Source of the DNA: Methanomassiliicoccales archaeon
GTDB lineage: Archaea > Thermoplasmatota > Thermoplasmata > SG8-5 > JAGLSY01
Length of the DNA stretch: 36,983 bases
NCBI GenBank assembly: GCA_030672365.1
Contig: DAOVGM010000055.1
Span: 1 to 36,983, forward strand
Reading direction: 5' to 3'
Shown here: positions 3,526-31,283 of the stretch, piece by piece
Numbering within the stretch: position 1 is the first letter of the stretch
How the letters are laid out: every line of letters starts with the position of its first letter
Program-made: the position numbers and the translations under genes
The notes under the pieces: generated by a model
What the model saw: the letters and a program-made list of their open reading frames with translations, nothing else
What the model was told of the DNA's origin: nothing
Database searches by the model: none

Positions 3526-3535
3526 GGAAAAATAG

Positions 3536-3610
3536 CGGACGTGAGGGGATTCGAACCCCTGACTTACAGCTTAGGAGGCTGTCGCCATATCCTGGCTAGG
3601 CCACACGTCC
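3536..3610 (-). tRNA. tRNA-Arg (anticodon CCT)
   Basis: Minus strand GGACGTG TG GCCTAGCCAGGATATGGC G ACAGC CTCCTAA GCTGT AAGTC AGGGG TTCGAAT CCCCT CACGTCC G; full cloverleaf. Confidence 0.95.
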
Positions 3611-3698
3611 TTAATTGAGGGAAAAGTAATCTGATATATAACATTGTACTTTCCAAAAACATTTTAAACTGCGCTCATTTCCGTAGCCTGCACAACAT

Positions 3699-3840
3699 GG
3701 GCCCATAGATCAGCCTGGAAGATCGCCTGCTTTGCATTGGCTCGGCGGCCGAAGGACGCCGAGACACATAATAGCAGGAGGTCACGGGTTCAAAAGACAT
3801 CCAGATGTGCTCTGGGTGTCTGACTATCCCGTTGGGTCCA
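3699..3840 (+). tRNA. tRNA-Ala (anticodon TGC) interrupted by two introns (3737-3772 and 3795-3826)
   Basis: Removing both insertions gives GGGCCCA TA GATC AGCCTGGAA GATC G CCTGC TTTGCAA GCAGG AGGTC ACGGG TTCAAAT CCCGT TGGGTCC A (74 nt), a perfect cloverleaf with the G3:U70 alanine identity pair. Confidence 0.92.
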
Positions 3841-3847
3841 TCATTTT

Positions 3848-4387
3848 TTATTGCATCCCCATTTCCATGAACTTGAAGGCTCTTCTCCGGCCTTCCAGGA
3901 ACCGGTAGACTGCTGAATGCTCGCTTCCCTCCAAAATCATCTGGCTCGCCCGTTTTGCGACATCGAGTGATTGGATGTCGCCGATGATTGCCACCGAATT
4001 GCCGAAAATAGACATCTCGGCGCCTGTGAGCTCCTCGATGATTCGCCGCGTCTTGCCGTCGGTTCCGATTAGTCTGGCTCTTATTCTTCGGACGTGCTTC
4101 GTGCTCTTGCCGACGAAGTCCCGGACGTCCAGAAGTTCGAGATATATGTCATCACTTCTGAGCTGCATCGCCCTGTCCGGGGAGAAACCGCGCGCGATGG
4201 CCTTCACGATGTCGCGCGCTTTCAGGGCCATATAGTCGCCTTCCTCTTTCGATGCAATGCCGACATCGCCGGTTTTCGAATCGACTTGTATCTGGGTTTC
4301 GGTCATCTCCTCGATTCTCTGCTTGACCTCGCCTTTCTGGCCAATCAAAACGGCGACCCTTTCCTTCGGCATGCGAACGTACAACAT
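3848..4387 (-). CDS. KH-domain RNA-processing protein (Dim2/Pno1-like)
   Basis: Two KH-like segments (VAVLIGQKGEVKQRIEEMT; ARLIGTDGKTRRIIEELTGAEMSIFGNSVAIIGD); adjacent to RIO1 and aIF1A as commonly seen in archaea. Confidence 0.88.
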   Translation of the reverse strand: MLYVRMPKERVAVLIGQKGEVKQRIEEMTETQIQVDSKTGDVGIASKEEGDYMALKARDIVKAIARGFSPDRAMQLRSDDIYLELLDVRDFVGKSTKHVRRIRARLIGTDGKTRRIIEELTGAEMSIFGNSVAIIGDIQSLDVAKRASQMILEGSEHSAVYRFLEGRRRAFKFMEMGMQ

Positions 4388-4389
4388 TA

Positions 4390-5199
4390 TTATTCACCCT
4401 TGACCTCGGCAATTAATTTTTCAACATCCAGTTCAACGCCTTTCTTGGTAAAAAATCTTGCGATGTTGGTGATGTCGCGCTCCAGGAACTCGTCTGCCAT
4501 CGGATGGTTCTTTAAAACTGCCTGGCCAACATCGATGATTATTGGTTCTTCTACTGGTTGCCCACCAGTAGAAGCGGACTCGGATTCTGCCTGTCTCATT
4601 AGGATGTTGTACTCGCTAAGATCTGCATGGACCAGTCCGACGTCCTGGTACATCGTCAGGATATCGGCATGGATTTTTTCATAGACCTTGACGGGGTCTG
4701 CGAGTTCGACATCCTTCAGGTGTTTGGCGGGGGTTGTTTCGGTTCCGATGTATTCCATCACGACCACGTTGTTTGAGCAGGCTATCGGTTTAGGCACCGA
4801 TATTCCGCCTCCGTGCATTCTCTCGAGGTTGCGAAATTCCTTCTGAGCCCAGAGGTAAATACCGCGCCTATGGTTTTTGCCAACGCTCTTGAACCTCTGG
4901 TCGCCGACGATGTACTTCTGAATATTCTTGAAGGTGGAGTTCGAAACTCGATAAATTTTAACAGCCAGATGTTTGCCGTCTTTTGTGTCTGCCCTGAAGA
5001 CGTTGCCTTCTTTTCCGGTGGCCAGCGGGAAGTCTATGATGTCGAAGGTGTTTTTCGACATCATAGAATAGAGCGTCATGAGGGTCTTGTGGTCGAAGAC
5101 TTCATCGTAAGTCTTGCGCTCGTCGGCATCCTTTTCCCGAAATTTGTAAGACAAGACTTTGGCCTCTAACTGCATTCTTTTCTTTTCGGAAAATTCCAT
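4390..5199 (-). CDS. rio1: RIO1-type serine/threonine protein kinase
   Basis: STGKEGNV-like ATGKEGNVFRA, LAVKIYR, VHADLSEYNIL, IIDVGQAV. Confidence 0.93.
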   Translation of the reverse strand: MEFSEKKRMQLEAKVLSYKFREKDADERKTYDEVFDHKTLMTLYSMMSKNTFDIIDFPLATGKEGNVFRADTKDGKHLAVKIYRVSNSTFKNIQKYIVGDQRFKSVGKNHRRGIYLWAQKEFRNLERMHGGGISVPKPIACSNNVVVMEYIGTETTPAKHLKDVELADPVKVYEKIHADILTMYQDVGLVHADLSEYNILMRQAESESASTGGQPVEEPIIIDVGQAVLKNHPMADEFLERDITNIARFFTKKGVELDVEKLIAEVKGE

Positions 5200-5213
5200 T
5201 GCTCAAACCCCAC

Positions 5214-5537
5214 TCAGAAGACGTTGATGACCTCGGGAATGGCTCCTTTTCTGCTCAAGTAGGATGACTGGGTCCGGGTGTATCGATACACCACGTCCGC
5301 TTTCTCGTCTTGGAACTCCCAAGGACGAATAATCAAAAGATCGCCCTCGCGAATCCACATTCGCTTTTTGAGCTTGCCGGGTATTCTTCCCATTCTTGAC
5401 TTGCCGTCCTCGCACATAACCTTGATTTTCGAGGCGCCCATGAGCTGGTCGGCTATCCCGAACATCTCCCGCTTGGGCTTTTTCGGCATAGGCGCGCGAA
5501 CGACCTCTTCCTGACCTGCTGCGGCTCCTGGTCTCAA
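5214..5537 (-). CDS. eif1A: Translation initiation factor aIF-1A
   Basis: EMFGIADQLMGASKIKVMCEDGKSRMGRIPGKLKKRMWIREGDLLIIRPWEFQDEKADVVYRYT; start assigned to a TTG; the 168-aa track ORF is N-terminally overextended. Confidence 0.9.
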   Translation of the reverse strand: MRPGAAAGQEEVVRAPMPKKPKREMFGIADQLMGASKIKVMCEDGKSRMGRIPGKLKKRMWIREGDLLIIRPWEFQDEKADVVYRYTRTQSSYLSRKGAIPEVINVF

Positions 5538-5610
5538 GGTAACACCACACTCTGTAATTACAGGCAATATAAGGAGAGTTTGGTATTTAATAACAATTGA
5601 TGTCTGGCAA

Positions 5611-5831
5611 CTCCGAGCAGGGCATAGGGGACGGGTCAATGTTGTGTCAAATGCACAACATTTTGTAGTTGTGCATTTTTTCAACAGAAGTGCACAACTA
5701 CAAAAGCAAATACGTATCATATCAATTATAAGCTATGTATTTGATTAAATTTCTGAGATGCGAAGCGATTCGAAATATAGCCAGTGCAGACGCAGGGGGG
5801 TGGGGGGAACGCATTGAGTGGGGTGGGAATA
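5611..5831 (-). repeat. Copy 1 of a dispersed C-rich hairpin repeat (long form)
   Basis: Reverse complement of 5611-5660 matches 29383-29432 at ~44/50 positions without gaps (by eye); its 5' part (CTGGCTATATTTCG, CCCACCCC...CCCCCCACCC) also matches 29298-29360. Confidence 0.8.
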
Positions 5832-12182: not shown

Positions 12183-12437
12183 ATGGATCTAATGTCCTTG
12201 ATAAATCTCGTTTTGTTAATTTCGATGGTGATATTGATATTCTTCGCCATCGAGATGGGTGACCTTATACAGGCATCGATACTTCTGGGAGCCGGTAGTG
12301 CCCTTTTGGCGTGCGTTTTCTTCATCGCCGGCGCTCCGTTCGCGGCTGTCTTCGAGCTTGTAGTCGGCGCAGGATTGATTACCGTTCTGTTCATTTCCAC
12401 GGTCAGCCTGACGAAGAGCGGAGGTGATGCGGAATGA
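12183..12437 (+). CDS. MbhD/NuoJ N-half-like membrane subunit
   Basis: Three TM helices; FELVVGAGLITVLFISTVSL resembles MbhD/NuoJ; first gene of the operon. Confidence 0.65.
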   Translation: MDLMSLINLVLLISMVILIFFAIEMGDLIQASILLGAGSALLACVFFIAGAPFAAVFELVVGAGLITVLFISTVSLTKSGGDAE

Positions 12438-12673
12438 GCCCGTCCAGTAAGATGACAACAGCGGCTGCCGCAACCATCTTGCTGCTCGCCGTCTTGGTCG
12501 GCTTCGCCTTCACGATGTCGAACGAGGCGGTCGTGCTGGAAGATACCGGTGTACCTGTAGAAAATCAGCTTTGGGAGGCCAGAACGCTTGACCTGCTAAT
12601 CCTGTCAGTCATGATGTTCAGCGCTGTAATCGGAGTGCTGGCCCTTGTTGGAGGTGAGTTCCGATGGAATTAG
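12434..12673 (+). CDS. MbhE/NuoJ C-half-like membrane subunit
   Basis: Two TM helices; LWEARTLDLLILSVMMFSAVIGVLALVGG resembles MbhE; overlaps both neighbours by a few nt. Confidence 0.6.
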   Translation: MSPSSKMTTAAAATILLLAVLVGFAFTMSNEAVVLEDTGVPVENQLWEARTLDLLILSVMMFSAVIGVLALVGGEFRWN

Positions 12674-12960
12674 AAATGATCCAGATGAACCTATTCTTCG
12701 CCGCCATTCTCCTGTTCTTCGGCCTATACGCCATTATGAGGAAGCCGAATCTGATTAAAATTATCATAGGTTTGGAGATAATGGCCAAAGCCGCACTTCT
12801 AAGTTTTATCGGAAGCGGCGGCGCGAGCATCCAGTCTGTCGTTATCATCGTCATCGCAATTGACGCAATCGTGGCTGCGATTGCGTTGTCCATAGTGGTT
12901 AACGTCTGGAAACAGAACAAAACGCTGGACGTCGGTAAAATAACGAGATTGAGGGGGTGA
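12664..12960 (+). CDS. NuoK/MnhC-like subunit
   Basis: IIIGLEIMAKAALLSFIG and VVIIVIAIDAIVAAIALSIVV match the NuoK fold. Confidence 0.85.
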   Translation: MELEMIQMNLFFAAILLFFGLYAIMRKPNLIKIIIGLEIMAKAALLSFIGSGGASIQSVVIIVIAIDAIVAAIALSIVVNVWKQNKTLDVGKITRLRG

Positions 12961-12964
12961 AATC

Positions 12965-14743
12965 ATGATTCTGGAAAATTCATTGTTGGTTTTACTCATC
13001 ATCGTTCTGCCTTTCATCGCCACGGCACTTATACCGGCACTCAGGAGGTTCGGCGACAAAGCAATTGCCGGAATCGCGGTAGTTGCCGCGTTTCTCCTTG
13101 CCGCCTTCGTCTTCATGTTGGTCCCCGAGATATTCTTCGGGGCGACGAACGCAATCACACAATCCTATGATTGGATACCCTCCGCGGGCATCATATTCAG
13201 CGTATATATCGACCCGCTGGCCATGCTCATGGCGCTCATCGCCACCGGCATCGGCGCTTTGACAGTTCTGTATTCAGTCAAGTACATGGAGGGCAAGAAA
13301 GGCCTGGCCAGGTACTACTCGCTGGTCATACTCTTCATCGGCTCGATGGTGTGTTTGGTTTTCACCGACAACCTCCTGGTTCTCTACATTTTCTGGGAAA
13401 TCATCGGCCTGTGCTCATACGCGCTCATCGGTTTCTACAACACAGACCCGAAGGCTGCCAGAGCAGGAATCAAGGCATTCGTGATGACACGGGTAGGCGA
13501 CGTCGGCCTGTTGCTCGGTATATTCCTGTTGTATGCAGGCACCGGCACGTTCTCGATTTCAGACATGGTCTCGGGAGCGGTTACAGTTCCGGCCACGCAC
13601 CTTTCACTTGCCGCATTCTTGTTCATTCTTGGTGCTATGGGCAAGTCCGCCCAGGTACCGCTGCACACATGGTTGCCCGACGCGATGGAGGCGCCCACAA
13701 CGGTCAGCTCCCTAATCCACGCCGCAACGCTGGTGAACGCCGGCATTTACATACTGGCCAGGATGTCCCCGCTCTTCATAGGGGTCGAGGGGTGGACAAC
13801 CGCACTTCTGTTGATAGGAGGCATAACGGCACTTCTAGCGGCAATCATGGTGCTCGTCGAGCCGGACCTGAAACGGGTGCTGGCCTACTCTACAATAAGC
13901 CAGCTCGGTTACATGGTCTTCGCACTCGGCATAGGTGTCGGAGGGGTGTTTGCAGCTTCGTATCATCTGATGAGCCACGCGATTTTCAAAGGCCTATTGT
14001 TCCTTTGCGCCGGCGCGATCATTCACGCCGTCGGAACACGCAACATGTACTCCATGGGCGGCCTGAAGAAGGAGATGAAGGTGACACATTTCGCGATGCT
14101 CTTCGGAACACTGGCTCTCGCCGGGCTGGTGCCGTTCAGCGGCTTCTGGTCCAAGGACCTGATATTCGCCGGCGCTTATGGCGCCGAACTTTGGATCCCA
14201 CTGGCATTCATGGTGTTCATCGCGATTTTGACGGTAGCTTACTCGCTCAGGATGTACTACCTGGTGTTCCACGGAAAGTCCAAGAGGGCCGAGCCGGCGC
14301 ACAAAACGCCGGCCGCGATGGCCATACCTTTGGTTTTACTGGCCATCGGTGCGATAGCATCCTGGGCACTCATCGGAATATTCAGCGAGGCATTCTACGA
14401 CTTCGGGTTCGCCGATGCGCATGCCTACACGATATTCTCGTTCATCGAGCACACCTTCACGAGCCTGGCCGTCGTATTCTCATTCATCGCGCTCGGCCTC
14501 GGAGTTATGTTCTTCCTTGGCAGAAAAGATGCTTACAGGAACAAGCCAGTGCGCTCGATCCTGAAAGCAGCGGGCGCCGGATTCGGCTTCGACAGGTTCT
14601 ACGACGGCATCGTGATAGGCCTGAAGGAATTCGGATTGAGGTTGAGAAAGACGCAAACCGGAGACGCCAACATAAATTCTGTCGGCATCGTCGCAGCACT
14701 TCTTTTGATACTAATTTTCATATTCTTCTGGGGGGTGTTCTGA
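12965..14743 (+). CDS. NuoL-like proton/ion-translocating subunit
   Basis: YFSLVILFIGSMVCLVF-type segment, WEIIGLCSYALIGF, PLHTWLPDAMEAPTTVSSLIHAATLVNAGIYIL, long C-terminal helix. Confidence 0.93.
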   Translation: MILENSLLVLLIIVLPFIATALIPALRRFGDKAIAGIAVVAAFLLAAFVFMLVPEIFFGATNAITQSYDWIPSAGIIFSVYIDPLAMLMALIATGIGALTVLYSVKYMEGKKGLARYYSLVILFIGSMVCLVFTDNLLVLYIFWEIIGLCSYALIGFYNTDPKAARAGIKAFVMTRVGDVGLLLGIFLLYAGTGTFSISDMVSGAVTVPATHLSLAAFLFILGAMGKSAQVPLHTWLPDAMEAPTTVSSLIHAATLVNAGIYILARMSPLFIGVEGWTTALLLIGGITALLAAIMVLVEPDLKRVLAYSTISQLGYMVFALGIGVGGVFAASYHLMSHAIFKGLLFLCAGAIIHAVGTRNMYSMGGLKKEMKVTHFAMLFGTLALAGLVPFSGFWSKDLIFAGAYGAELWIPLAFMVFIAILTVAYSLRMYYLVFHGKSKRAEPAHKTPAAMAIPLVLLAIGAIASWALIGIFSEAFYDFGFADAHAYTIFSFIEHTFTSLAVVFSFIALGLGVMFFLGRKDAYRNKPVRSILKAAGAGFGFDRFYDGIVIGLKEFGLRLRKTQTGDANINSVGIVAALLLILIFIFFWGVF

Positions 14744-16219
14744 GTGATGGCAATATTACCAATACTGCTGCTCATAATCGGAGCATACCTGGCCTTCATG
14801 GCCGGCAGGCTCAAGCCGGCTAACAAGATGGCCGCGGGAGCAGTCGCGTCGGCATTCGCACTCCTGAGCTTCATAGTCACATTACTGTTGGCTATGCGGG
14901 TGTGGGACGGTGAACTTATATCCTGCACGATAGGCGGCACAATAATCGTCGCCGACGCCCTCGGAATCATGCTGGCCCTTATCGCGACGGCCATGGTAAC
15001 GCTCATTTCGGTCTACTCGATGAGCTACATGAAGCACGACACGAGGCTGGAGAGTTACTATTCACTCTTGCTTCTCATGGTCGCCGGCATACTCGGGATC
15101 GGGTTCGCCAGCGACTTGTTCCTGATGTTCGTGTTCTTCGAGCTGATGGCTGTTTCCTCCTACGCTCTGGTCACGTTCAGAAAGCACAGGAAGGACGCGG
15201 TCGAGGCAGGCATGAAATACGTAATTCTGAGCGCTGCCGGCTCTGCAATCGCACTCTTCGGAATCTCGCTGATGTACGGCCAGACAGGCTCGCTCGAGAT
15301 AGCCACAGTGGCGAACGGCCTCAGGGACAACATGGTCTCGCTCATAGGCGTGGTTATGGTCATTATCGGTTTCGGTGTGAAGGCAGCTATCGTACCATTA
15401 CACACCTGGCTGCCGGACGCACACTCGGCAGCACCGTCGGGAATAAGCGCCATGCTGTCCGGAATAGTGATACAGGCAGGCTTCATAGCACTCTTCAAGG
15501 CATTACTGGCCTTCACCGAGACCAACATATCGGTGGGCAACCTTTTGGTCGGCCTGGCACTCGTTACGATGACTGTCGGCAACCTGCTGGCTTTCGTGCA
15601 GATTTCTGTCAAACGCGCTGACCTGAAGAGGGTGCTGGCCTACTCAAGCATCGCGCAGATGGGCTACATCATTCTCGGCATCGGCTTATGGATGGAATAC
15701 AACACGGAAATCGGCTTGCAAGGCGGTCTGTTCCACATAATGACACACGCCTTCATGAAGGGGCTGGCCTTTTTGTGCGCCGGCCTCATCATCTACAGGC
15801 TGGGGACAAGGGAATTGAAGAAGATGAGAGGTATCGGGCACCTGATGCCCGTGACCGCATTCTGCTTCACGATTGCGGCGCTGTCTCTTGCGGGCCTCCC
15901 CCCGTTAAGCGGTTTCATGAGCGAATGGATGATATTCCGAGCAGGCATCGACGCCTGCAGCATAATCGGCTTCTGGGGAATACTCATAACCTTCATCGCG
16001 GTGCTGAATTCCATAATCTCGATGGGCTACTACCTGCCAATCATCAGGACGTTCTTCCTCAAGCCGAACCGGAAGTTCGTGGGAGTCAAGGAAACGCCGA
16101 AGCTCATGATGATTCCGATAATAGTCATGACCGCGATAACCATAACTCTGGGTGTCTGGCCAGAGCTGGGCCTGAAGGCTATTGCACCGGTTGTGACAGC
16201 CCTGTTAGGAGGTGTCTGA
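14744..16219 (+). CDS. NuoN/NuoM-like antiporter-type subunit
   Basis: ELMAVSSYALVTF, PLHTWLPDAHSAAPSGISAMLSGIVIQAGF, LKRVLAYSSIAQMGYI. Confidence 0.92.
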   Translation: MMAILPILLLIIGAYLAFMAGRLKPANKMAAGAVASAFALLSFIVTLLLAMRVWDGELISCTIGGTIIVADALGIMLALIATAMVTLISVYSMSYMKHDTRLESYYSLLLLMVAGILGIGFASDLFLMFVFFELMAVSSYALVTFRKHRKDAVEAGMKYVILSAAGSAIALFGISLMYGQTGSLEIATVANGLRDNMVSLIGVVMVIIGFGVKAAIVPLHTWLPDAHSAAPSGISAMLSGIVIQAGFIALFKALLAFTETNISVGNLLVGLALVTMTVGNLLAFVQISVKRADLKRVLAYSSIAQMGYIILGIGLWMEYNTEIGLQGGLFHIMTHAFMKGLAFLCAGLIIYRLGTRELKKMRGIGHLMPVTAFCFTIAALSLAGLPPLSGFMSEWMIFRAGIDACSIIGFWGILITFIAVLNSIISMGYYLPIIRTFFLKPNRKFVGVKETPKLMMIPIIVMTAITITLGVWPELGLKAIAPVVTALLGGV

Positions 16220-16574
16220 AATGGATTGGCAACTGTTATTCACACCGTTGTTTGTCTTCCTGGTATTCCTCTTCGTGAGTGCATCAATCTACTGGTTCGG
16301 AGGGAAGCTGGCCCTGAAAGGGGGCCCACAATCGGACCACAAACTGAGCACATATGCCTGCGGTGAAGAAGTTGAAGGCGGGAAGTTCCAGCAATCCTTT
16401 ACGCTGTTTCACGTAGCCTTCATCTTCACGATATTCCACATAGCGGCGTTGATAATAGTGACGATGTCGAATCTGGCCGAACCGGAAAACTACCTTTACG
16501 GGCTGTTGTTCGTCGGGGGCCTGGTAATCGCCGCGGCGGCGCTCATAACCTCAGGAGGTGTCAAACATGCTTGA
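16212..16574 (+). CDS. NuoA-like subunit
   Basis: 120 aa, 3 TM; STYACGEEVEGGKFQQSFTLFHVAFIFTIFHIAALI resembles NuoA Y-E-C/G-E region. Confidence 0.75.
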   Translation: MSEMDWQLLFTPLFVFLVFLFVSASIYWFGGKLALKGGPQSDHKLSTYACGEEVEGGKFQQSFTLFHVAFIFTIFHIAALIIVTMSNLAEPENYLYGLLFVGGLVIAAAALITSGGVKHA

Positions 16575-16998
16575 GAAACTCGTGACCTGGTCAAGGGTAA
16601 AATCGCCCTGGGTCCTGCACATGAACACCGGCAGCTGCAACGGCTGCGACATCGAGATCATAGCGGCACTCATGCCGAGATTTGACGCGGAGCGCTTCGG
16701 CGTCCTGCTCAAAGCAACCCCGAGACACGCGGACGTTCTTCTGTGTACTGGTGCCGTATCAGGGCAAATGAAGGATCGGTTAATCAAGATATACGAACAG
16801 ATGCCTGAGCCCAAGTTTGTAGTGACCATTGGCGAGTGCGCTATCAGCGGGGCAGGTTTCGACGGTGCATACAACGTGGAAGGAGGCATTGACAAGGTGA
16901 TTCCGGTCAACGCTCACATACCCGGCTGTCCGCCCAAACCGGAGGCAATACTGGACGGCGTGGTAAAACTTCTTACCGCCATTAAAGGAGGTGACTGA
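16567..16998 (+). CDS. [NiFe] hydrogenase small subunit / NuoB-like
   Basis: MNTGSCNGCDIEIIAAL, LLCTGAVS, GECAISGAGF, PGCPPKPEAIL. Confidence 0.92.
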   Translation: MLEKLVTWSRVKSPWVLHMNTGSCNGCDIEIIAALMPRFDAERFGVLLKATPRHADVLLCTGAVSGQMKDRLIKIYEQMPEPKFVVTIGECAISGAGFDGAYNVEGGIDKVIPVNAHIPGCPPKPEAILDGVVKLLTAIKGGD

Positions 16999-17458
16999 GA
17001 TGGTTGAGGAACAACTGGTCGAGCAATTAACGAACAGTCTGAGAGGACTTCAGCAAGGAATCGAGGCGAAGATGCCCCGGCGCGTTTATGTGGACATCCC
17101 GAGAGAATCTCTACTGGATGTCGCCAAGATACTGAAGGACGACTTCGACGGATATCACATCTCGACGATAACGGCCATCGACGCCGGCGAGAATTTCGAA
17201 CTACTGTATCACATAATTGTCGGTGCAGCCTGCGTGACTCTCAGGACCAAGGTGCCGAGGAACAACCCCACCATCGAGACACTGACACCAGTACTGCCCG
17301 GCGCCGTTCTTTTCGAGAGGGAGGCCCACGACATCATGGGCATCATATTCAAAGGACACCCGGACATGAGGGTTCTGTTGCTTCCCGACAGTTGGGGCAA
17401 CAAAGGCCATCCGCTCCGCAAGGACTGGGTCGACCCCAGGAAAGGAGGTGGTCAGTGA
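16991..17458 (+). CDS. NuoC-like 30-kDa subunit
   Basis: FELLYHIIVGAACVTLRTKVPRNNPTIETLTPVLPGAVLFEREAHDIMGIIFKGHPDMRVLLLPDSW. Confidence 0.92.
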   Translation: MTEMVEEQLVEQLTNSLRGLQQGIEAKMPRRVYVDIPRESLLDVAKILKDDFDGYHISTITAIDAGENFELLYHIIVGAACVTLRTKVPRNNPTIETLTPVLPGAVLFEREAHDIMGIIFKGHPDMRVLLLPDSWGNKGHPLRKDWVDPRKGGGQ

Positions 17459-18639
17459 TGGCGAAATTAACGATACCCATCGGACCGCAACATCCCGCGC
17501 TCAAAGAGCCGGAAAAGTTCATGATTACAGTCGAAGGCGAGACAGTGGTCGATGCCGACGTTCGAATCGGCCACATGCACCGCGGTCTGGAGAAGATGTT
17601 CGAAAACCGGACCTACATGCAATTGATTCACGCAACAGAGAGAATCTGCGGAATATGCTCGTTCACGCACTCCACCAACTTCTGCCAGAACGTCGAGTAC
17701 ATCCTTGGCACCGACCCGCCGCCGCGTGGTCTGTACCTAAGGACGATAATGAACGAATGGGAGAGAATTCACAGCCATCTTTTGTGGCTGGGAATCGCCG
17801 GCCACGAGATGGGTTTTGATACACTTCTCATGTGGTCCTGGGATGACAGGGAAGAGATTCTCAACCTTTTCGAGGACATTACCGGTAACAGGGTAACTCA
17901 CGCGTACAACACAATAGGAGGCGTCCGCAGGGACATATCGGACGCCCAGATACAGAGATCGCTGAGAGTTCACGACTATCTGCTCGAGAGAATGGACGCA
18001 TACGTTCACGTTGCTTTGAACGAAAAGACGGTCCTTAAGAGGACCCAGGGAGTCGGCATTCTCACGACCGAAGATGCAAAACGGCTTTGCGCAGTCGGTC
18101 CGCGCTTGAGGGCTTCGAACATCAGCTATGACGTTCGAAAGAACGACCCCTACGCGGCCTATGACCAGATACCATGGGAAGTCATTACCTGCGACACGCT
18201 GGACGTCCATGCACAACTGGTCGTCAGAGCACTGGAGATAATCGAAGCCATCAAGATGTGCAAGTACATGCTCGAGAACTTGCCGGCCGGTGACATTCGC
18301 ATCAAGGTGCCGAGAAAGGTTCCCGAAGGCGAGGCAATAAGCCGCACCGAGGCCCCGAGAGGTGAGGACTTACACTATCTCAAAAGCAACGGAACGGACA
18401 AGCCAGAGAGGTTGAAGGTCCGTGCACCGACACTTGCCAACATACTCAATGTCGCCCACGTACTCAAGGGCGCCAACATCGCGGACGTGCCGATGATTGT
18501 GGCAGGCATCGACCCCTGCATGGGCTGCATGGACCGCGTGTTGATTGTCGACAGCGAAAAGGAGACCAGCCGGGTTTGGGACAGGGAACAGCTGCGCAAA
18601 TATTCAATCGACTGGTATGAAAAGGAGGCGTTCAGATGA
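17458..18639 (+). CDS. Group 4 [NiFe] hydrogenase large subunit / NuoD-like
   Basis: IPIGPQHPALKEPE, ERICGICSFTHS (L1 CxxC) and DPCMGCMDR (L2 CxxC): both Ni ligand pairs intact. Confidence 0.93.
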   Translation: MAKLTIPIGPQHPALKEPEKFMITVEGETVVDADVRIGHMHRGLEKMFENRTYMQLIHATERICGICSFTHSTNFCQNVEYILGTDPPPRGLYLRTIMNEWERIHSHLLWLGIAGHEMGFDTLLMWSWDDREEILNLFEDITGNRVTHAYNTIGGVRRDISDAQIQRSLRVHDYLLERMDAYVHVALNEKTVLKRTQGVGILTTEDAKRLCAVGPRLRASNISYDVRKNDPYAAYDQIPWEVITCDTLDVHAQLVVRALEIIEAIKMCKYMLENLPAGDIRIKVPRKVPEGEAISRTEAPRGEDLHYLKSNGTDKPERLKVRAPTLANILNVAHVLKGANIADVPMIVAGIDPCMGCMDRVLIVDSEKETSRVWDREQLRKYSIDWYEKEAFR

Positions 18640-19622
18640 ATATTGTTGAATCGTTAGTCTACATGCTCATATTCCCGGGCTTCCTGTTCCTCACGAGCTA
18701 CGCTTTCTTCGCCCAATACATCGACAGAAAGTTATACGCCCGCTTCCAGAAAAGGGTCGGGCCCCCGTTCATCCAGCCGATCGCCGATTTCATAAAACTG
18801 ATGTCGAAGGAGGACGTCGTGCCGAAAGCAGCGGACAAGAGAATGTTCACACTGGCTCCGATAGTAGGATTGGCCGCAGTAATCACAGCCTTCATGTACA
18901 TCCCGATTGCCTGGGAATCATCCCTGCTTCCGTCATTCGAGGGCGACCTGATAGTCGTGCTCTACCTGCTAACAATCCCGACGCTGGCTTTGTTCCTGGC
19001 CGGGTGGACATCCGGCAATCCGTTCGGCCAAGTAGGCTCGATGCGTGCCATCACCCAGATGATTTCATATGAAATACCGTTCTTCATGGCATTGCTGGCT
19101 CCGGCGCTCATAGTCGGAAGCTGGAGTTTCGGGAACATAGTGACAGACCAGATGAACGGCATCTGGCTGATTTTCCTGGCGCCGATCGCGTTCATAGTCG
19201 CGATCATCACTTTGCAGGGAAAGTTGGAGAGGCTTCCGTTCGATATACCGGAGGCGGAGACAGAAATCGTCGGCGGCCCGTTGACAGAATATTCAGGCCG
19301 CAGGCTGGCTCTGTTCAAAGCCATGCTGGACATCGAGATGGTTGTCGGCGCGTCGGTTATCACGGCCCTGTTCCTGGGCGGACCGCACCTGTTCATCGAC
19401 TTCAGCGGATTGCCGCTGGCCCCGTACCTGCCGTTCATCATCGGCGTCATCATCTTCTTCGTGAAGGTTCTGGCGGTGATACTTATCCTCACACTCATCA
19501 AATCGGTGGTTGCCAGGTACAGGATAGACCAGATGGTCACGCTGTCTTACAGGTGGATGGTCTCGCTGGCGGTGGTTCAGCTCGTGATAATCATACTCGC
19601 GAAGTACATGGGGTGGTTATAG
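18636..19622 (+). CDS. NuoH-like membrane subunit
   Basis: YARFQKRVGPPFIQPIADFIKLMSKED, ERLPFDIPEAETEIVGGPLTEYSGRRLALF. Confidence 0.94.
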   Translation: MNIVESLVYMLIFPGFLFLTSYAFFAQYIDRKLYARFQKRVGPPFIQPIADFIKLMSKEDVVPKAADKRMFTLAPIVGLAAVITAFMYIPIAWESSLLPSFEGDLIVVLYLLTIPTLALFLAGWTSGNPFGQVGSMRAITQMISYEIPFFMALLAPALIVGSWSFGNIVTDQMNGIWLIFLAPIAFIVAIITLQGKLERLPFDIPEAETEIVGGPLTEYSGRRLALFKAMLDIEMVVGASVITALFLGGPHLFIDFSGLPLAPYLPFIIGVIIFFVKVLAVILILTLIKSVVARYRIDQMVTLSYRWMVSLAVVQLVIIILAKYMGWL

Positions 19623-19964
19623 ATGAAGAGACCAGGAGTGATGATAGGCGCCGTTCTCGGCCGTCTTACGAAGAAACCAGTGACCGTGCTGTTCCCGTTC
19701 GAGGAATCGCCGGCCGAGCCCGGGTACAGGGGTCAGATGAACTTCGACAACGACAAGTGCATAAGCTGCGGGATGTGCGCCAAGGATTGCCCCTCCTTCG
19801 CCTGCGTGATGGAGGAAATCGACGGCAAGAAGAGGCCGGTGTTCTACCTGGACAGGTGCATGTTCTGCGGCCAATGCGAGGAATCGTGCCCGAAGGACGC
19901 AATCGAGATGACCACGAAGTACGACCTGGCCCACCTTCCGGGCGACGAACCTATAGTGAAATGA
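19623..19964 (+). CDS. NuoI-like 2x[4Fe-4S] ferredoxin subunit
   Basis: CISCGMCAKDCP and CMFCGQCEESCP. Confidence 0.93.
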   Translation: MKRPGVMIGAVLGRLTKKPVTVLFPFEESPAEPGYRGQMNFDNDKCISCGMCAKDCPSFACVMEEIDGKKRPVFYLDRCMFCGQCEESCPKDAIEMTTKYDLAHLPGDEPIVK

Positions 19965-19980
19965 GTATGGTTGGATATCT

Positions 19981-20481
19981 ATGATATTCACTATATCCAT
20001 GACATCCATGGACGTCCTGGCAGAGGTCGACAACGTGTTGACCAACCTAAAGCATGCCGTAATCGTAGGCATAGGCAACGAACTGAACGGGGACGACGGC
20101 TTTGGGATTTACCTGTCGGAAAAACTATCGACCAGCTTGAAGTCCGCAAAGGTTTTTGTCACACACACCGCGCCGGAGAATTTCGTCAGCAGCATCGTTA
20201 AGGAAAGGCCCAGCCATGTCATCTTTCTCGACGTGGCTGCTTTCGACGGAGCACCGGGCACGATAAGACTGTTGACAACGGACGACCTGGCCAGAATAGA
20301 GGCCGCAACACATCGAATCCCGCTTTCGAAGATAATAGAAAGGCTGCTGTCATTCCACGAATGCCGGATAGTCATAATCGGCGTCCAGCCCCGTTCGATG
20401 GACGTCGGCGCAGGTTTATCCCCTGAGGTCCGGACAGCCGCAGACGAACTTCTTGACATCCTTTGCCGGATATTACGTTGA
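19981..20481 (+). CDS. Hydrogenase maturation endopeptidase (HycI/HyaD family)
   Basis: AVIVGIGNELNGDDGFGIYLSEKL; GVQPRSMDVGAGLSPEV. Confidence 0.9.
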   Translation: MIFTISMTSMDVLAEVDNVLTNLKHAVIVGIGNELNGDDGFGIYLSEKLSTSLKSAKVFVTHTAPENFVSSIVKERPSHVIFLDVAAFDGAPGTIRLLTTDDLARIEAATHRIPLSKIIERLLSFHECRIVIIGVQPRSMDVGAGLSPEVRTAADELLDILCRILR

Positions 20482-29459: not shown

Positions 29460-30536
29460 CTAACGGGAGTATCTGTATTCGATATTACAGGAACCTTCCC
29501 TGCTCACCATGCAGGCGCCAATCGGGGTGTCAGGATTGCAGGCATTGCCGAACAACGGACATTCCTGCGATGTGATTACGCCGCGCAGCACGTCACCGCA
29601 TCTGCATCCCGCCGGCTCAGGATATTCTCTATTATGGACGTCAGCCAGCTCGTCCGCGAAAAGTTTTCTGGCATCGTGGTTTTCATACTCAGGTTTCAGA
29701 TCCAAACCGCTTCCGAGAATTACGGGAAATCCGCGCCAGACCACGTCCGTCGGCTCGAAGACCGCATCCATGGCAGCCAGCGCCTTCGGGTTTCCTTCAT
29801 CTTTGACCACACGCTCATACTCGTTTCGGACATAGCCCTCGCCCTTTTCTAGCTGCTCAACGAGCATAAGGCACCCCATCAGGAGGTCGAGCGGCTCGAA
29901 GCCGGCGATAACCTGAGCCACCCCGTACTTCTCGGATAAAAATTTGTATGGCTCGGTGCCGATGATGGTGCTCACATGGCCAGGCTGGATGAGGCCGTCC
30001 AGCGCAACCTCGCCGGACTCCACGATGGCCTTCAGCGCGGGCGGCACGACCCTGTGGCACGATAAAAATGATAAATTTTCGGGAGGGTGGGCCAACAAAA
30101 CAGCCGCGGTTGTCGGGGCAGTGGTCTTGAATCCCACGGCCATAAACACCACGTCCTTGTCGGTGCTGGCCGCGATATTCACAGCGTCGCCGGCGCCGTA
30201 AATGATACGGATATCAGCGCCCCCACTCTGCATGTCGGCGATGCTTTTACCGTCCACACCGGGAACGTGAGCCATGTCGCCGAAGATAGTGAGGGTCTTT
30301 CCCGCACAAGCCAGTGCCTTCGCCTCTTCGATTTCTTTCGGCGTCGTCACGCAGACCGGGCATCCGGGTCCTTGGCGGATTTCGATGTTCGCCTTTTCCA
30401 GAAGCGGCATGAGGCCGTGCCTGACCAGAGTGTCCTGGTGGGTTCCGCAGACGTGCATGAACCTCGCCTTGATGTTCTTCGACCGGATCTTCTCGACAAT
30501 TTTGGAAGCCAGCTCCCCATCTCTAAGCTCAAACAT
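29460..30536 (-). CDS. hypD: Hydrogenase formation protein HypD
   Basis: FMHVCGTHQDTLVRHGL, GPGCPVCVTTPKEI, VGFKTTAPTTA, C-terminal Cys cluster. Confidence 0.95.
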   Translation of the reverse strand: MFELRDGELASKIVEKIRSKNIKARFMHVCGTHQDTLVRHGLMPLLEKANIEIRQGPGCPVCVTTPKEIEEAKALACAGKTLTIFGDMAHVPGVDGKSIADMQSGGADIRIIYGAGDAVNIAASTDKDVVFMAVGFKTTAPTTAAVLLAHPPENLSFLSCHRVVPPALKAIVESGEVALDGLIQPGHVSTIIGTEPYKFLSEKYGVAQVIAGFEPLDLLMGCLMLVEQLEKGEGYVRNEYERVVKDEGNPKALAAMDAVFEPTDVVWRGFPVILGSGLDLKPEYENHDARKLFADELADVHNREYPEPAGCRCGDVLRGVITSQECPLFGNACNPDTPIGACMVSREGSCNIEYRYSR

Positions 30537-30596
30537 TTTAATTCCCCTCTTTTTCAAAGTGCCGATTCTCACCCACTCCATTCCAAGGCATCGAAA

Positions 30597-30974
30597 TCAT
30601 TCCCCCACCTCTGCAATCATGTTTTTGATCTGGCATTCTCTTCCTTTCAGAATGCTCACAGACCCGTCACAGTCCGGGCACTTGATTATGGGCATTCGAA
30701 AGTGATTTTCCTCGCCCAGATAATCTACATCCCCAACCCTGCCGCATTCCTGGCATTCGATTTCCGCGGGCACGCTCTCGAAGGTGAATTTTGAACCGGC
30801 CAGACGTTCATTGTCTTCGGCCAAGGTGTTGTAGGCAAATCTCATTTGCTCCTCTGCAAGAAATGACAGCTCACCGACCTCGACAATGACTTCATTGACT
30901 TTGGTCACGTTGTTTTTTTCTATCTCGGCTTTCAAAACGTCCACGAGGGCGCACATCATGGAAAATTCATGCAT
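30597..30974 (-). CDS. hypA: Hydrogenase nickel incorporation protein HypA
   Basis: MHEFSMMCALVDVL; zinc site CQECGRV...CPDCDG. Confidence 0.94.
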   Translation of the reverse strand: MHEFSMMCALVDVLKAEIEKNNVTKVNEVIVEVGELSFLAEEQMRFAYNTLAEDNERLAGSKFTFESVPAEIECQECGRVGDVDYLGEENHFRMPIIKCPDCDGSVSILKGRECQIKNMIAEVGE

Positions 30975-30980
30975 CTGGCC

Positions 30981-31199
30981 TCACTCCATGGCTTCGAACA
31001 TCTGACGCCACAATTCGAGGGTTTCGAGGGCCACCTTTTCCTCCAATATCTGGATTGCAAAGCCGGTGTGGACAATCACATATTCGTCGATGCCAGCGTC
31101 CACAAGGCTCACATCGATATCTCTCTTCACGCCCCCGAAATCGACGGTGGCTTTGTTTCCCTCCAATTCTATTACCTTTCCGGGCACTGCAAGGCACAT
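30981..31199 (-). CDS. hypC: Hydrogenase assembly chaperone HypC
   Basis: MCLAVPGKVIELEGNKATVDFGGVKRDIDVSLV with N-terminal Met-Cys; track ORF start is upstream. Confidence 0.95.
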   Translation of the reverse strand: MCLAVPGKVIELEGNKATVDFGGVKRDIDVSLVDAGIDEYVIVHTGFAIQILEEKVALETLELWRQMFEAME

Positions 31200-31283
31200 A
31201 TCAGCAACAAACCCACAATCGATTATTAACCTTTTGCCCAAATCGATTGTATGACTGCTAAGGTGGGCGGGTTAAGATGGGTC

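Follow-up and report, generated by a model that had tools for sequence, protein, structure and literature searches.

The tRNA-Ala(UGC) gene at positions 3699–3840 (+) of the window, the 36,983-nt stretch of DNA analysed here, carries an insertion in its T-loop, and T-loop introns are, on the textbook expectation, almost absent in Thermoplasmatota. The locus raises the question of whether such a gene could give rise to a working tRNA and, if so, which kind of splicing endonuclease (EndA) would serve it. The window corresponds to contig 78 of a Methanomassiliicoccales MAG (G000; 1.26 Mb in 92 contigs, 83.5% complete); its gene content had been judged euryarchaeal, in agreement with the assignment of the MAG to Thermoplasmatota.

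A tRNA-Ala(UGC) gene with two introns

The gene contains a 36-nt intron at the canonical position 37/38 and a 32-nt intron in the T-loop at position 59/60. Exon 1 (3699–3736, +) covers tRNA positions 1–37, with the anticodon TGC at 3733–3735, and is followed by intron 1 (3737–3772, +), for which ARAGORN found the same 36 nt. Exon 2 (3773–3794, +; positions 38–59) ends with the 5′ strand of the T-stem, ACGGG, and the T-loop bases TTCAAA. Intron 2, a hairpin with the sequence AGACATCCAGATGTGCTCTGGGTGTCTGACTA, occupies positions 3795–3826 (+) and is flanked by ACGGGTTCAAA on its 5′ side and TCCCGT on its 3′ side, while exon 3 (3827–3840, +; positions 60–73) comprises T60, CCCGT, the 3′ strand of the acceptor stem and A73. 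The coordinates and sequence of the T-loop intron, as well as its place in a two-intron gene, are exactly those proposed in the initial annotation. Judged from the sequence alone, its junction has a one-base ambiguity, 58/59 and 59/60 being equally possible, and it was placed at 59/60 on the basis of bulge–helix–bulge (BHB) geometry.

Removal of both introns restored a 74-nt tRNA with a full cloverleaf and G3:U70 (ARAGORN drawing), as had been predicted. The spliced molecule is identical at 74 of 74 positions, exon 1 included, to an intronless tRNA-Ala(UGC) from another genome of the same order (G012; L041:1308–1381). This match sets the exon ends without reference to a model, save for the choice between 58/59 and 59/60. 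A putative TATA-like element, TTTTAAA (3662–3668, +), was read from the sequence ~31 nt upstream of the gene, and a run of six T residues directly after it (3844–3849, +) is a possible terminator. A tRNA-Arg(CCU) gene without an intron lies divergently at 3535–3610 (−), and the same gene pair occurs in the same-family genomes G001 (L037) and G002 (L036).

According to ORF translations, PNO1-like (KH-domain), Rio1-like kinase and eIF1A-like genes stand in a row at 3848–5720 (−), convergent with tRNA-Ala; farther along the window are a membrane complex I-like or group 4 hydrogenase gene cluster (12183–20481) and genes for HypD, HypA and HypC-like hydrogenase maturation proteins (29460–31241). 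Over the 1.5-kb flanks available for relatives, tRNA-Ala showed no conserved synteny with a PNO1-like or NAD-kinase-like gene, and ARAGORN found no tRNA near the KH (PNO1-like) homologue in four MAGs (Thermoplasmata/Methanomassiliicoccales).

Standard searches had been expected to miss this gene, and they do. ARAGORN called nothing on the native sequence but reported tRNA-Ala(tgc) once the gene was spliced or intron 2 alone was removed, and the Rfam search missed the gene as well. In the whole of G000, eight intron-bearing tRNA genes went unreported by Rfam at the gathering score and were recovered with an intron-tolerant model or by inspection. The Val(CAC) gene of G000 was misread by ARAGORN as Arg(CCG) with an intron.

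Bulge–helix–bulge structure and covariation

The T-arm together with intron 2 folded at −25.1 kcal/mol, compared with −11.3 ± 2.7 for 200 shuffled sequences, none of which folded as well (z = −5.1); intron 2 alone gave a z of −4.1. A relaxed BHB through which intron 2 could be spliced had been drawn in the initial annotation and can be retraced in full: an outer helix ACGGG/CCCGT with all five pairs, a central helix TTCA/TGAC with three of four pairs and a T–C mismatch at position 54, bulges AA^A (5′) and TA^T (3′), and a long inner stem, GACATCCAGA/TCTGGGTGTC. In intron 1, the central helix TTTG/CATA likewise has three of four pairs. With both central helices one pair short, the BHB motif in the window is slightly relaxed (for intron 2, outer helix of 5 bp, central helix 3/4, long inner helix). 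In the minimum-energy fold the central helix is open as a 6 × 6 internal loop, with the third base of the bulge paired into the intron stem, so that comparative evidence is needed for the motif; the 3-nt bulges were assigned by motif and are backed by covariation across homologous sites, not by the energy model.

Such support came from 12 T-loop introns of the order, two of them from G000, in which 46 of 48 central-helix cells pair, whereas random intron 4-mers (2000 draws) gave a mean of 21 and a maximum of 33. Exon base 57 forms an A–U pair with the intron in eight of these and a G–C pair in four. When the set was extended to 22 T-loop introns, 96.5% of the cells in the T-stem and central helix were paired, and the covariation score was 0.592 against 0.202 ± 0.025 after shuffling (0 of 500 as high). 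Sliding the register by one column lowered pairing to 69 or 56%, and all slid registers were worse. At base 57 the larger set has ten G–C pairs, eight A–U pairs and four unpaired positions, the last being G021 introns with A against G.

Splicing enzymes

A PF01974 search detected EndA in 38 of 41 genomes, usually with two domains per ORF. It is missing from G000 and G001, both incomplete assemblies; in G000 (83.5% complete) neither Pfam nor a query with the G002 protein retrieved one. The EndA of G002, from the same family, is 359 aa long with two N- and two C-domains, and its best PDB matches are 5x89, Archaeoglobus fulgidus 1r0v/2gjw and M. jannaschii 1a79. In the relatives, the catalytic Tyr, His and Lys lie in unit 2, His being absent from unit 1, and the loop before GDYLQLSL, the site of a CSL or ASL, matches the short loop of A. 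fulgidus in length; a Lys follows FG/YG in most of these proteins. The relatives show neither separate catalytic and structural subunits nor a third unit (one ORF, two units), and their catalytic unit has no Lys-containing loop of 11–18 residues ahead of the G-[DN]-x3-L-S motif. By sequence, the EndA of the relatives is thus a single two-unit, alpha'2-like protein that lacks the crenarchaeal or ARMAN loop.

These data bear on the proposal of the initial annotation that a heterodimeric EndA of relaxed specificity removes the introns. Removal by a broad-specificity enzyme, heterotetrameric or loop-bearing and of crenarchaeal or ARMAN type, would accord with the published link between introns of this kind and CSL/ASL-bearing enzymes (PMC12397907, PMC4033280) and with a central helix that is one pair short in the window. 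However, in the 21 relatives whose EndA ORFs were aligned, the enzyme is encoded by a single gene, in nearly all cases clearly of two units of which one is catalytic; none has an insertion of CSL/ASL size, and the G000 assembly yielded no EndA of any type. We consider this explanation very improbable.

Our reading is that tRNA-Ala(UGC) is very probably a functional gene with two protein-spliced BHB introns, which an alpha'2-type EndA cuts out before RtcB joins the exons. We infer that the gene is expressed and that the organism shares the EndA type of its relatives. Each intron would form a BHB in the primary transcript; in intron 2, exon T-loop bases 54–57 would pair with the intron's final stretch, which makes the T-stem the outer helix, the T-loop/intron pairing the central helix and the hairpin of the intron the inner helix. 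The two-unit homodimeric enzyme would then cleave each bulge 3′ of its second base, and RtcB, whose gene is present in G000 (C29:178–1485, E = 8.9e-185), would join the exon ends. Since bases 54–57 lie in the central helix, the D-loop/T-loop elbow cannot coexist with the BHB, and this anatomy suggests that the BHB itself is recognized and that splicing precedes folding of the elbow. Cleavage driven by the BHB would fit the behaviour of the homodimeric EndA of Ferroplasma, also in Thermoplasmata, which reportedly cuts a minimal BHB without the mature tRNA domain; according to the same study, a canonical BHB is cut by all EndA types, and homodimers are able to cut BHL-like motifs (PMC8707768). 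The proposed mechanism sits less well with reviews in which alpha'2 enzymes prefer a strict BHB (PMC4090602, PMC6379350, PMC12397907), their hosts have single canonical introns only (PMC4090602) and relaxed motifs need a CSL or ASL (PMC6379350, PMC12397907).

Introns in other tRNA genes and genomes

G000 was scanned with a B-box pattern, with Rfam at a loose threshold and with R1, a covariance model built for this purpose to tolerate introns. Its training set included several G000 introns and a few chimeras carrying random inserts in the T-loop, so that its scores for those are not independent; two chimeric rows misaligned by MAFFT were dropped, and Pro(GGG) and Leu(CAA) of G000 stood outside the training set. 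At least seven G000 genes have D-loop introns, and a second T-loop intron besides that of tRNA-Ala is present, in Leu(CAA). The D-loop introns, at 17/17a or in the 20/21 region, affect all three tRNA-Val genes, both tRNA-Lys genes and Pro(GGG): Val(CAC) (C20:35566–35675, L113; central helix TCGG/CCGA), Val(GAC) (C57:34059–34165, L114; TTGG/CCAA), Val(UAC) (C46:1331–1439, L111), Lys(CUU) (C14:4589–4693, L112; TTAG/CTAA), Pro(GGG) (C66:10180–10297, L116; GTAG/CTAC) and Lys(UUU) (C89, L118), which has a 37/38 intron in addition. Leu(CAA) (~C46:1527–1690, L111), close to tRNA-Val(UAC) on the opposite strand, combines its T-loop 59/60 intron with a less clear D-loop insertion that has no obvious BHB. 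Apart from Leu(CAA), the D-loop central helices, as read from the sequences, are mostly complete, with compensating changes. No source copy for the introns of the window was found among the introns collected, the best local score for the T-loop intron being 16, compared with 64 for identity. Partial copies of a tRNA 5′ end precede intact tRNA-Glu(CUC) (gctcccatagtgtagt...; L063, C8) and tRNA-Lys(CUU) (gggcctgtagc...; L066, C14) in G000, possibly left over from an intron gain or a duplication of the gene.

Among the closest relatives, the syntenic Ala(UGC) gene has only the 37/38 intron in G001 and no intron in G002. This comparison supports an independent gain of the T-loop intron of the window, which the initial annotation had offered as one of its explanations. 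In a survey of the order, R1 was run on eight relatives and long matches were aligned. The intron counts are lower bounds; T-loop 59/60 introns were present in at least six other genomes, the same-family G002 and five more. Among the matches listed, they occur in Val(CAC), Val(GAC) and Ala(GGC) of G002, Arg(UCU) and Lys(UUU) of G003, Lys(CUU) and Pro(UGG) of G004, Pro(UGG) of G006, Pro(GGG) of G008 and Arg(CCU) of G012. The Val(CAC) and Val(GAC) introns of G002 differ at one of 32 bases, and this near-identity suggests copying between genes.

Beyond the order, four further members of the class were considered. In the sequences retrieved, G021 has eight T-loop introns, G031 three and G039 one, and none was seen in G024. 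A T-arm-only model built from the 22 T-loop introns (R2) scored introns at 30–37 bits and intronless tRNAs at ~14 bits or less. Applied to 149 genomes of the phylum, R2 matched in 34 at E ≤ 1e-3, from about 15 families by hand count, and in 41 at E ≤ 0.1, some of these perhaps by chance, the E-values of such short-calibrated models being rough. Of the best 30 R2 loci, 28 fall inside full-length tRNA genes whose T-loop holds an insertion, as judged by the separate model R1. The rarity of such introns in euryarchaea implied by the initial annotation is thus wrong for Thermoplasmatota, where they are widespread, and the intron of the window is one among numerous lineage-specific introns of the T-loop and D-loop.

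Near-identical T-loop introns of the form TGCAACTTG...CAAGTTGC were seen in different isotypes and genomes (L240, L241, L251, L257, L262 and L263; f23 family and neighbours), which suggests intron transposition between tRNA genes. Four tRNA-Trp(CCA)-like genes (L258, L265, L259 and L260) have anticodon-loop insertions of ~90–105 nt, and L258 and L265 have a T-loop intron too.

This recurrence also bears on whether the gene is a pseudogene, inactivated by the T-loop insertion while another Ala(UGC) gene serves. A second copy could be missing from the incomplete assembly, and none was found in G000, at 83.5% completeness, when the check proposed in the initial annotation was made. All 74 exon bases are retained and match the intronless relative, and the insertion site and its BHB recur across many isotypes and genomes, which makes a pseudogene highly improbable. 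An assembly artefact or chance hairpin is hardly credible, even in a MAG, given that intron removal restores the exons exactly and that the same architecture appears independently in other assemblies, among them the single-contig genome G039.

Discussion

A tRNA-Ala(UGC) gene with two BHB introns belongs to a known kind. Introns at 59/60, splicing through a BHB and genes with several introns have already been described, chiefly in Crenarchaeota, 59/60 being a listed site of BHB tRNA introns in that group and above all in Thermoproteales (PMC4090602, PMC4033280). The crenarchaeal introns resemble the present ones in site, BHB logic, intron size, a co-occurring 37/38 intron and near-identical introns across tRNA genes. 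They belong to another phylum, however, and the crenarchaeal EndA is an (alpha-beta)2 enzyme with a crenarchaea-specific loop, unlike the loop-less two-unit form in relatives of G000. ARMAN (Micrarchaeum) introns also occupy non-canonical sites (PMC12397907), but there the enzyme is a three-unit epsilon2 EndA with an ARMAN-specific loop, which was not found in the relatives. Multiple or non-canonical tRNA introns outside Crenarchaeota are known in other lineages, namely Methanopyrus kandleri and Methanothermobacter (PMC4033280) and the Asgard Atabeyarchaeia and Freyarchaeia (PMC11291895); the M. kandleri EndA is of the (alpha-beta)2 type without the specific loop (PMC6379350). In enzyme architecture the closest counterparts are Ferroplasma acidarmanus (PMC8707768) and A. 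fulgidus (1r0v/2gjw), with a two-unit EndA and the catalytic Tyr, His and Lys in unit 2, although the Ferroplasma protein has 288 residues compared with ~350–370 in relatives of G000. We found no report of T-loop introns in either species. The non-canonical intron models of tRNAscan-SE 2.0 derive from Crenarchaeota, Euryarchaeota and Thaumarchaeota, and intron gains were placed mostly in Crenarchaeota and Thaumarchaeota (PMC8450103). In the literature accessible to us we found no description of such a spread in Thermoplasmatota.

The lineage-wide pattern is more interesting than the single tRNA-Ala gene. The spread of 59/60 introns under a loop-less homodimeric EndA runs against published generalisations. 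Whether Thermoplasmatota as a whole have undergone a large spread of T-loop and D-loop introns, with several in many genomes and near-identical copies across tRNA genes, while keeping a homodimeric, alpha'2-type EndA with no specificity loop is a point on which we are evenly divided. If they have, this would break the accepted rule by which non-canonical introns evolve together with heteromeric EndAs that bear such a loop; perhaps the conserved Lys in the short EndA loop substitutes, or near-canonical BHBs need no loop. In many Thermoplasmatota genomes the annotated tRNA set may be incomplete. Reviews ascribe single canonical introns and a strict endonuclease to this euryarchaeal phylum, yet T-loop introns are common there, so that one can test directly in Thermoplasmatota whether the diversity of introns tracks the architecture of EndA.
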